NCBI RefSeq assembly: GCF_900177385.1
Contig: NZ_FXBJ01000002.1
Location: forward strand, 2,236,001 to 2,300,000
Reading direction: 5' to 3'
Source of the DNA: Carnobacterium iners
GTDB lineage: Bacteria > Bacillota > Bacilli > Lactobacillales > Carnobacteriaceae
Length of the DNA: 64,000 nucleotides
Part shown: positions 3,257 to 12,598 of the stretch, piece after piece
How positions within the stretch are numbered: the stretch's first letter is position 1
Layout of the letters: every line of letters begins with the position of its first letter
Notes under the pieces: model-generated
Seen by the model: the letters and a program-made list of their open reading frames with translations, nothing else
What the model was told of the DNA's origin: nothing
Databases searched by the model: none
Position numbers and translations under genes: made by a program

Positions 3257-3450
3257 AGAATTCTGAGATGTTCGTCACGTCCAACATGTGTTGACCGAAC
3301 AATTAATAATACCTTGGGATCCAAACTGACTCAAGCAAATAACAAGCCTTTTCACTTGGTAGTTAGACGTTTGACAGTGGAGCCCACCTGCTAAATGCGG
3401 GTTCAATACAACCTGGACGTATAAACGGCATCACCGGATTTCTTATTAAA
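3257..3450 (+). ncRNA. ssrS: 6S RNA
   Basis: 6S RNA mimics an open promoter and binds the housekeeping RNA polymerase holoenzyme in stationary phase. There is no ORF here. The 5' segment AATTCTGAGATG (about 3259) can pair with the 3' segment CATCACCGGATTTC (about 3429-3442), giving the family's closing stem, and internal complementary blocks such as ACGTCC (about 3277) and GGACGT (about 3415) extend the rod-like fold around a central bubble. A consensus promoter precedes it and an intrinsic terminator follows. The position next to rarA matches the Bacillus arrangement. The exact ends are estimates; identification rests on structure and context, not a covariance search. Confidence 0.75.
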
Positions 3451-9977: not shown

Positions 9978-10006
9978 AGCATACCAAAAAGAGACTTGTA
10001 CGTCAA
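9978..10006 (-). promoter_or_regulatory. Promoter of rplU-prp-rpmA
   Basis: -35 TTGACG (10006-10001), 17-base spacer, extended -10 TGG-TATGCT (9983-9978). The -35 overlaps the stop codon of the upstream ABC ATPase gene. Confidence 0.75.
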
Positions 10007-10698
10007 TCAATAGTTTTCTCTTTTTTCAAAAAAGTTTCAGAAGAGAGGCTTCTTGTACTAAATTTATCTGCAAATTCAATATCATGGGTAACAATTAATA
10101 TACCTGTTCCAGTAGCAGCTATCGTTTGTATCATTTCACCAATTCCATTTGAAGACTGTCGATCTAGAGCAGATGTCGGTTCATCGAAACACAGAATTTC
10201 TGGACTTAACATCATTGCACGTGCAATTGCAGCTCTTTGTTGTTGTCCACCTGACAGGGTCTTAGGGTATGCATCCTTTTTATCTAATATATTCATCTGT
10301 TTTAGTAAGTTTTCAGCTTTTTTTGTTGCTTCTTTTATCGTCATTAGTTTTTTCTGAACAGGTGCTTCAAGACAATTTTGGAGAATCGTTAAGTTAGGAA
10401 ATAGCTGATAATCTTGAAATACCATTCCAATCTTATTACCATAACGATTCCGTTCCTTTTTCGAAGTATATTCAGCCCGATCTTCAGTTGTTTTCTTATA
10501 AAGAAAATCATTAGTTATTGAAATAACGCCTTTATCTAACTCTTCAAGATTATTTAATAATCTCATAAAAGTCGTTTTACCTGTTCCAGACTCACCTACT
10601 AATGATATAATTTCGCCATAATCTATATTAAAATCAAAGTTATCGATTATTTTTATCTTATTAAATGTTTTAGTGATTCCTTGTGCATTCAACACCAT
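10003..10698 (-). CDS. Polar amino-acid ABC transporter, ATP-binding protein
   Basis: The nucleotide-binding subunit that drives uptake for the adjacent permease and lipoprotein. The 231-residue protein has Walker A GESGTGKTT near residue 35, Q-loop in MVFQDYQLFP near 93, the ABC signature LSGGQQQR near 149, Walker B ILCFDEPTSALD near 168 and the H-loop THD near 204, as in GlnQ/HisP-type ATPases. The C-terminus after the H-loop is shorter and more divergent (ending FLKKEKTID) than the usual family tail. It ends inside the rplU promoter. Last gene of a T-box controlled operon. Substrate cannot be told from this subunit. Confidence 0.92.
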   Translation of the reverse strand: MVLNAQGITKTFNKIKIIDNFDFNIDYGEIISLVGESGTGKTTFMRLLNNLEELDKGVISITNDFLYKKTTEDRAEYTSKKERNRYGNKIGMVFQDYQLFPNLTILQNCLEAPVQKKLMTIKEATKKAENLLKQMNILDKKDAYPKTLSGGQQQRAAIARAMMLSPEILCFDEPTSALDRQSSNGIGEMIQTIAATGTGILIVTHDIEFADKFSTRSLSSETFLKKEKTID

Positions 10699-10710: not shown

Positions 10711-11346
10711 TTAAAAATCAATTTTCTTTTCAATAATAGCTAGAATAACCGTTATTATCCCTGTAATAAAAAGATAAATCACTCCAACTGCTACAAAAGG
10801 AAGCAATGAGGCGTACGTATTAGCTGCAATTTGTCCCGCTCTCAAAAGTTCCCCAAGGCCTAATATGTAAACTAAAGAAGTATCTTTTACTAGTGATATA
10901 ACTTCATTTCCGACAGAAGGAAGAACGGTACGTAGAACTTGCGGAATAATAATTCTTCTAAAACCTTGTACTCTTCCAATTCCTAAAACTTTAATGGCTT
11001 CAAACTGCCCCTGTGGGATGGATAGGATACCACCTCTAAATATTTCAGCATAGTAGGCTGTATAATTTAAAGCAAATGCAATAATAGCTGCTACAAACCG
11101 GTCAAATGTAATCCCGACTAATGGAAGGCCAAAAAATACAATCATTAATTGAAGCAATAAAGGCGTACCACGCATAATATAAATATAAAGTTGAATAATC
11201 CAGGATATAAATTTCGGAGAATAAATTCTGATGCAAGCAACTAGAAATCCTAAGGGAATAGTTAAGAAAAAGATAATAAAAAATAATTGCATTGTTGTAC
11301 CTAAACCACTCAGTAAAGCTGGCATAATATCATTAATTAGTTCCAT
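10711..11346 (-). CDS. Polar amino-acid ABC transporter, permease
   Basis: A 211-residue inner-membrane protein of the His/Glu/Gln/Arg/opine permease family. It has four to five hydrophobic segments, the family motif around RGTPLLLQLMIVFFGLP near residue 60, and the EAA-type cytoplasmic loop EAIKVLGIGRVQGFRRIIIPQ near 136 that contacts the ATPase. It starts 12 bases upstream of the ATPase gene's reading start, so the two are tightly linked. A long palindrome separates it from the substrate-binding gene upstream. Confidence 0.92.
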   Translation of the reverse strand: MELINDIMPALLSGLGTTMQLFFIIFFLTIPLGFLVACIRIYSPKFISWIIQLYIYIMRGTPLLLQLMIVFFGLPLVGITFDRFVAAIIAFALNYTAYYAEIFRGGILSIPQGQFEAIKVLGIGRVQGFRRIIIPQVLRTVLPSVGNEVISLVKDTSLVYILGLGELLRAGQIAANTYASLLPFVAVGVIYLFITGIITVILAIIEKKIDF

Positions 11347-11464: not shown

Positions 11465-12265
11465 TTATTCTTCAAACCATTTATCATATATTTTATCATA
11501 GGTTCCATCTTCTTTAATATCTGCTAAATTTTCATCTATAGCTTGTTTTAACTTATCGTCTGATTTGCGTAGTCCAACTGCATATTCTTCTTGACCAAAA
11601 TTTTCATCTAAAACTCTATATTCAATTTCTTTATTTTGTTTCATATAATATCGCCCTAACGTCTCATCCACTACAATTGCTTCACTACGACCAGATGCTA
11701 AATCATTAAAAACATCATTATTAGACGGATACTGAACTATTTCTCCATTATTAAATGATTCTATAACATTTTCTTCATCAGCCATGACAGCATCGACAGC
11801 ACTTGATGATTGTTGTGCAGCTATCGTTTTATCTTTTAAATCAGCTTTATTTTTTATTGGACTATCTTTTAGAACAATAATAATTTGGCTATTATCTAAA
11901 TAAGGACTACTAAATGAAACTTTTTCTTTTCTTTCTTCAGTTATTGTATAGCCATTCCAGATAACATCAATGTTTCCACCATTTAATTCTGTCTCTTTTA
12001 AGGCCCAGTCAATTGACTGAAATTTAAAATTAACTTCCATACGCTTTCCAATTTCGTTAGCTAAATCAATATCAAACCCAACAATTTCACCACTCGAATC
12101 TCTATAGCCCATAGGAGCAAAGGTATCATCTAATCCCATTATAATTTCACCTTTTCCCATTATTGCCTCATAACTATCTTTTTCCCGCGAATCTTCGCCA
12201 CAACCTGACAAAGCTAATCCTAGTAAACCTAAACCTGTAATAACCTTCAATAATTTATTTTTCAT
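11465..12265 (-). CDS. Amino-acid ABC transporter substrate-binding lipoprotein
   Basis: A 266-residue extracellular binding protein of the SBP_bac_3 family. The signal peptide ends in a lipobox (LALSGC, with the lipid-modified cysteine at about residue 22). GKGEIIMGLDDTFAPMGYRD begins the mature ligand domain, and FDIDLANEIGKRM near 64 is the family signature. The C-terminal DGTYDKIYDKWF is also typical. It is the first gene behind a T-box, so uptake should rise when a particular tRNA is uncharged. The ligand is one polar amino acid, unidentified; see the T-box entry for candidates. Confidence 0.93.
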   Translation of the reverse strand: MKNKLLKVITGLGLLGLALSGCGEDSREKDSYEAIMGKGEIIMGLDDTFAPMGYRDSSGEIVGFDIDLANEIGKRMEVNFKFQSIDWALKETELNGGNIDVIWNGYTITEERKEKVSFSSPYLDNSQIIIVLKDSPIKNKADLKDKTIAAQQSSSAVDAVMADEENVIESFNNGEIVQYPSNNDVFNDLASGRSEAIVVDETLGRYYMKQNKEIEYRVLDENFGQEEYAVGLRKSDDKLKQAIDENLADIKEDGTYDKIYDKWFEE

Positions 12266-12309: not shown

Positions 12310-12598
12310 AAATAAAAAAAGTCCTTTGATTTCCCGAATAACTGGAAATCAAAGGACGATAATTTTTATATCGTGGTACCACCTTTTTTTGTAGCCTCTT
12401 CACAGAAGACTACCTTATTACGTTCAAGACTACTAAACGCTAGTAATATAACGGTTACAACCGGATCAGCTTACTGAAATTTTTCAACTGTCAGCTTGGA
12501 GATGTGTGTTCAGATTAGAATTTTAATTGCTCACACCACCCGCAATCTCTCTTGTAAACTTCTAAACTTACTTTTTCTCGTCTTTGCTTTTACTTATT
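12310..12598 (-). promoter_or_regulatory. T-box riboswitch of the amino-acid ABC transporter operon
   Basis: On the minus strand a leader of about 290 bases contains the 14-base T-box AAGGTGGTACCACG (12385-12372) and a terminator whose 14-bp stem (12321-12334 with 12344-12357) is followed by seven T. Stem I is recognisable from the AGTA element near 12570 and the GGTGGTGTGAG stretch near 12536. The specifier side reads TGAACACACATCTCC (about 12512-12498). By comparison with the valS (TGAAA-GTA) and ileS (GTAAG-ATC) leaders here the codon would be ACA (Thr); by the rule that a purine follows the codon it would be CAC (His). I cannot decide between them. Confidence 0.9.

Follow-up and report, generated by a model that had tools for sequence, protein, structure and literature searches.

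ABC transporters governed by histidine-responsive T-box leaders are known from Lactobacillales, Listeria, and Clostridioides (Ashniev 2022, PMC9413887; Wels 2008, PMC2494555). In a table passage of Wels 2008 (PMC2494555), ABC transporters appear under histidine, and only APC and LIVCS transporters appear under threonine. The regulon data of Ashniev 2022 (PMC9413887) place HisXYZ* of Clostridia and Negativicutes under HisR, with the consensus cacTTTAnnnnnnTAAAgtg, and give hisYZ*X operons of Streptococcus as being without known regulation. The name hisXYZ*, as used in the table of that study, suggests the gene order binding protein, permease, and ATPase, which is also the order at the locus described here. 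The same T-box table has no entry for Carnobacterium, Desemzia, or Trichococcus under the hisXYZ* transporter, and a literature search combining T-box, Carnobacterium, and histidine, in which papers were judged by their titles and the beginnings of their abstracts, gave nothing on this topic beyond PMC9413887.

The locus lies in the window, by which we mean the whole 64,000-nucleotide stretch of Carnobacterium iners DNA that was analyzed. It has in common with the T-box(His) hisXYZ* and hisYZ*X systems listed in those two compilations (PMC9413887, PMC2494555) a His T-box, an amino acid ABC importer, and a host within the Firmicutes, and its leader is a known type of switch found in Carnobacteriaceae as a new host. 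In agreement with this placement, the Stem I stretch of a leader from Desemzia (L142), a member of Carnobacteriaceae, is identical to that of a leader from a family-mate of the window genome (L069). Our principal reading, to which we assign a probability of roughly 0.93, is that a transcriptional T-box with the specifier CAC senses histidine in front of a HisXYZ-like importer.

The T-box leader and its operon

A covariance-model search identifies a T-box leader RNA, extending from Stem I to the antiterminator, at positions 12349..12593 of the minus strand (RF00230, 121.9 bits, E 1.7e-26), above the gathering score of 93; it is one of 16 T-box matches genome-wide, 12 of which exceed the cut-off. 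Eighty-four nucleotides separate the end of the match from the start of an amino acid ABC operon, all on the minus strand, which encodes a substrate-binding lipoprotein of 266 aa (HisX-like, 11465..12265), a permease of 211 aa (HisY-like, 10711..11346), and an ATPase of 231 aa (HisZ*-like, 10003..10698). The binding protein matches amino acid binding-protein families, the permease scores above the cut-off of TIGR01726, and the ATPase matches amino acid ABC ATPase families; none of the three reaches an equivalog cut-off, which for the ATPase is a statement about the best 25 of 189 models. Two further Rfam matches in the window are to 6S RNA (3257-3444, plus strand) and to a ribosomal protein L21 leader (9954-9880, minus strand).

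The leader contains both a UGGN bulge in a predicted antiterminator and a competing predicted terminator with a U run. The bulge reads UGGUACC (12375..12381, minus), with U as the variable base at 12378, and the antiterminator that carries it is predicted at -7.3 kcal/mol (z -1.60), whereas the alternative intrinsic terminator hairpin is predicted at 12321..12357 (minus; -21.7 kcal/mol, z -6.12) and is followed by the U run at 12320..12314. Minimum-energy folding of Stem I alone did not recover the T-box fold (z -0.26). We infer a switch in which uncharged tRNA-His(GUG) would pair with CAC and its CCA end would enter the UGGU bulge, such that the antiterminator forms and transcription proceeds into the HisXYZ-like histidine importer; when histidine is sufficient, the terminator (12357..12321) would form and the operon would be off.

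Overlapping codons in the specifier loop

The minus strand from 12512 to 12498 reads TGAACACACATCTCC, a segment that the first-pass annotation had correctly located inside the T-box. This segment contains the GAA of the specifier loop (12509..12511, minus), read directly and aligned with GA or GAA columns in 42 related leaders described below, followed by two overlapping triplets, ACA at 12507..12505 and CAC at 12506..12504; in isolation, GAACACACAUCUCC permits either threonine or histidine. The CAC triplet (His) is the complement of the tRNA-His anticodon GUG, and the genome has two gene copies of the matching tRNA-His(GUG). An A follows at 12503 (minus), and UCUC at 12499..12502 (minus) forms the 3' strand of the helix closing the specifier loop, its partner being a GAGA 5' in Stem I.

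The first-pass annotation had left open the choice between threonine and histidine, deriving threonine from the valS and ileS leaders, in which a single base does separate AA from the codon. We compared the spacing in the other 15 T-boxes genome-wide, naming their genes from the ORF starts and taking the codons from those names (the family search checked the his genes only). The GAA-to-codon spacing is 0 in three (leuS, the his genes, and serS), 1 in seven, and 2 in two (pheS and alaS), and in the remaining three GAA is absent and a 5' spacing cannot be defined. A ruler of one base after AA is unreliable when spacings of 0, 1, and 2 occur in the same genome, and the threonine assignment drawn from it is weakened, the spacer being unconserved in orthologs as well. 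The distance between codon and helix is steadier and gives CAC: of the 14 other leaders in which the helix was found, 11 have a single intervening base in their best-ranked solution. By itself this 3' ruler is not absolute. For pheS the gap is two bases, argS is equivocal (a gap of zero ranks first and a gap of one second), as is cysES (two and one tied), and no helix was found for the trp leader in this comparison. Alignment to the Rfam model, which had been proposed as a means of placing the specifier, assigns CAC to its codon columns at the cost of a one-base insertion; by our reading, the same model is off by one base at pheS, and its placement is therefore not relied on by itself. Given these exceptions to the 3' ruler and the Rfam error at pheS, we sought further evidence in orthologs.

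Sixteen of the 18 family genomes, the window's own included, encode a binding protein with 60% identity or more to that of the window, and the other two (G007 and G017) lack one; weaker relatives, at E 1e-40 or better, occur in 214 of 295 genomes of the order. In eight of the 18 family genomes a second binding-protein gene, 51-58% identical to the window protein, stands in tandem (L076-L083, adjoining L070, L068, L069, L060, L067, L064, L063, and L062), and the window has a single copy. From named genomes we retained the best 80 relatives, which range from Desemzia, Trichococcus, Alkalibacterium, and Jeotgalibaca to Clostridioides difficile. The patterns used to extract T-box stretches targeted the antiterminator and the apex of Stem I and left the specifier out. 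Forty-three of the 80 named loci were inspected and 27 had a T-box core, with L167 excluded for its masked specifier region. In total, 66 loci yielded 70 T-box stretches, of which 55 remained after removal of those more than 93% identical and 42 entered alignment A2. The 13 left out are nine of a divergent class, both L109 stretches, the second of L111, and a false match (L165:3469); 12 of these contain CAC in the inspected part, and the false match does not. Leaders in L112-L141 and further ones from the HisR scan described below were inspected and are neither in A2 nor in its counts; among them the L116 leader reads CAU, also a histidine codon, at the specifier place.

CAC is invariant in all 42 distinct leaders of orthologous transporters in A2. 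The base preceding it may be A, U, or C, and the base following it A (40 leaders), G (1), or C (1). Read one base earlier, the triplet is ACA in 37 leaders, UCA in four, and CCA in one; read one base later, it is ACA in 40, ACG in one, and ACC in one. The later triplet always encodes threonine because CAC followed by any base gives ACN, and the two readings are told apart by the C before the later triplet, which never changes in the 42 leaders. Six of the eight printed leaders from Trichococcus and Trichococcus-like genomes (L093, L094, L098, and L145-L147) read GAAAUCACGUCUC, with no ACA, and the other two (L097 and L144) read CACA. The C two places before CAC (column 107) is replaced by a gap in 16 leaders and by A in 10. 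The nine divergent-class leaders (L104-L108, L110 twice, L196, and L214) read GAAGACACA[GC]CC or similar, and all contain CAC; by the 3' ruler they would place ACA at a gap of one or CAC at a gap of two from the Watson-Crick helix, gaps that a mismatched pair closing the loop would alter, and this class does not settle the register.

Because the helix below the loop was derived from the 42 sequences on which it is tested, and these are related, the shuffled controls are not to be read as probabilities. Across the alignment 98.2-98.4% of its cells are paired, compared with 34-53% when the partner is slid by one to three columns. Three of the four helix pairs change on both sides, with 22 such cells versus a shuffled mean of 5.2 and 0-6 in the slid versions; a slide by +2 columns also yields four pairs changed on both sides, but with six cells and 47% paired. 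The top pair (columns 30/113) is AU in 33 leaders, GC in four, CG in one, GU in one, other combinations in two, and a gap in one, and these variants indicate that the helix starts one base after CAC. The histidine reading of the first-pass annotation is thus upheld by the 42 leaders, the position of the covarying helix, and the regulation of the orthologs; the rule from which it had started, a purine after the codon, does find A at 12503 and arrives at the right codon, but its appeal to pairing with U33 is outdated. That annotation had also allowed for a third codon in the specifier. CAU (12504..12502) and AUC (12503..12501) both run into the covarying helix, CAU being lost in addition in orthologs such as L071 and L093, and AAC (12510..12508) is lost wherever column 107 is A or a gap.

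Were ACA (12507..12505) the specifier, the leader would sense tRNA-Thr(UGU) and the operon would import threonine, which we regard as extremely improbable. Its position one base after GAA is the commonest 5' spacing (seven of the 12 leaders with GAA), pheS provides a precedent for a two-base 3' gap, and the U of the window's UGGU is complementary to A73 of tRNA-Thr(UGU) but not to C73 of tRNA-His. The register nevertheless drifts to UCA and CCA among the orthologs, HisR-type sites precede other orthologs, and the thrS leader of the same genome uses ACC with UGGA, matching tRNA-Thr(GGU) with U73. According to TBDB, ACA makes up 0.13 of threonine specifiers, whereas CAC makes up 0.95 of histidine specifiers. 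The argument from the variable base does not survive comparison either: this base is A in 30 leaders, G in 10, U in two, and C in none, with U confined to the window leader and one sister species. We had considered UGGU with A73 as support for threonine and dropped it once 40 of the 42 leaders showed A or G and the histidine exception in TBDB was taken into account. In tRNA-His(GUG), by our reading of an acceptor stem of eight pairs, C73 is paired with G-1, and the U of the window leader would not pair with it; the TBDB account omits the UGGN base as a criterion for His leaders, on the ground that the base may already be engaged in pairing inside the tRNA, and the mismatch is therefore not taken to exclude membership of the T-box class. 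The variable U does not speak for threonine. It is an observation in its own right that these His T-boxes carry mostly A at this position despite C73 in the tRNA-His of this genome, with G, a base that would pair, in 10.

A T-box with two codons, in which the overlapping ACACACA answers to both tRNA-His(GUG) and tRNA-Thr(UGU), is likewise very improbable. Both codons are present, the U of UGGU suits tRNA-Thr(UGU), and specificity for several tRNAs is possible according to TBDB; yet 26 of the 42 leaders have a gap or another base where the window has its C two positions ahead of CAC, and the bulge U is found in just two.

Histidine-linked regulation and the substrate of the importer

The reading of CAC as the specifier agrees with a leader of known context in the same genome. 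The T-box of a set of his genes (L008) shares with the window leader the succession of GAA, CAC, A, and helix; it differs in having no spacer between GAA and CAC, in carrying UGGA and not UGGU, and in preceding biosynthetic genes. At C. difficile loci whose binding protein is 46-47% identical, the leader also carries CAC, and for Clostridioides a T-box(His) hisXYZ* system is given in the T-box table of Ashniev 2022 (PMC9413887).

Orthologs without a T-box provide a second link to histidine. Palindromes resembling the HisR operator (score of at least 18 of 22) are found upstream of 28 of the 41 orthologs that lack a T-box and of two of the 38 that have one, the two classes having been set by sequence pattern, such that a few loci may be misfiled; the scan covered 79 of the 80 loci, since one was not long enough to score. 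Sixty permuted palindromes gave a mean of 1.3 of 41, the best of them, a nearly identical motif, reaching 14 of 41 and the next five. In a block-shuffle control, p<=0.01 was obtained for 22 of the 41 loci without a T-box and one of the 38 with one. Together, the CAC T-boxes and the HisR-type sites tie this transporter to histidine by two unrelated regulators.

The protein evidence for histidine is moderate. Among solved structures, the closest relatives of the binding protein by sequence are 3hv1 from S. thermophilus (183.1 bits) and 4ohn from S. pneumoniae (161.9 bits), whose title includes 'with Bound Histidine'; within the collection searched, no paper on 4ohn and histidine was found. These two proteins have the same fold as the window protein, come from different organisms, are 36-37% identical to it, and share with it a stretch, IDW..KE.EL..G.ID.IWNGY, that is missing from the remaining three among the five alignments shown. 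In a structure search with the AlphaFold2 model (mean pLDDT 89.1), 3hv1 is the top match (Z 30.3), 4ohn shares third place with glutamine-type domains (Z 26.6), and the scores of binding proteins for glutamine, glutamate, and arginine differ from that of 4ohn by no more than about 2 Z units. Judged from this predicted model, the fold by itself does not name the ligand. Matches to the HisJ, HisM, HisQ, and HisP models all fall below the NCBIfam cut-offs; we take these to be enterobacterial models, for which a miss would not decide membership of the Gram-positive group.

A T-box that senses histidine could also control an importer with broader substrates, for instance histidine together with arginine or lysine. 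This is compatible with our principal reading, whose first concern is the codon, and we hold it to be unlikely, if far from negligible. The top NCBIfam binding-protein model is for lysine/arginine/ornithine, with a score below its cut-off, the ancestral arginine-binding protein AncQR scores 160.8 bits, close to 4ohn, and ArtJ, a structural relative of the binding protein, is titled as arginine-, lysine-, and histidine-binding. Set against this are the histidine-specific control found in the T-box and HisR lineages alike and the crystallization of 4ohn, which has the IWNGY stretch, with histidine. To let the specifier assign the substrate is a reasonable step, and as far as sequence can tell, the importer would most likely take up histidine.

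Histidine genes elsewhere in the genome

The genome encodes a hisZ-G-D-C-B-A-F-IE operon that includes a histidinol-phosphatase gene, all with open reading frames, hisZ scoring below its cut-off; hisH is absent from this operon. The sole hisH above its cut-off in the genome is found in a his remnant led by a T-box with CAC (L222, G000:C2:2142500-2151800), in which hisB is truncated and hisA is split into two ORFs, and hisH, hisF, and hisIE are open. A match to the Na+ riboswitch (RF03071, 45.5 bits) lies near this remnant (L222:3282-3328, minus). Another leader, L012 (G000:C2:1951272-1951478), reads GAAUGACAUUC, in which an Asp codon, GAC, overlaps ACA and a His codon, CAU; it precedes a gene that we take to be hisS, as recognized from the ORF start.

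Upstream of hisZ, a short leader ORF, MKINQAKNLKIEKNVIKNHHNHHR (L226:2841-2915, plus strand, in G000:C2), ends in NHHNHHR and is followed by strong structure (z -4.33) and then a terminator; no Rfam family matches the leader at E 0.01. The same layout, with the histidine run kept, recurs in another species of the genus (L232), making two of the five family genomes with hisG, and in the other three (HisG 41-42% identical) neither the peptide nor a T-box core was found by the patterns used. Based on this layout, the leader is likely a ribosome-mediated his attenuator in Lactobacillales. In the coverage of Ashniev (PMC9413887), his attenuators are given for the B. cereus group, Eubacteriales, and Erysipelotrichales only, and a literature search for his leader-peptide attenuation in Lactobacillales returned only that paper, whose account reports none.

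We put at about even odds the proposal that three RNA devices sense histidine in this organism: the CAC T-box of the uptake operon, the CAC T-box of the decayed his cluster, and the NHHNHHR leader peptide before the operon that lacks hisH. If true, hisH would respond to tRNA charging and the remaining pathway genes to ribosome stalling, two different readouts, and ribosome-mediated his attenuation would reach the Lactobacillales. For the locus in the window, an importer without an assigned substrate becomes a likely histidine importer, and comparison of orthologs, in which the codon is invariant and its flanks drift, can decide between overlapping Thr and His readings of a T-box.
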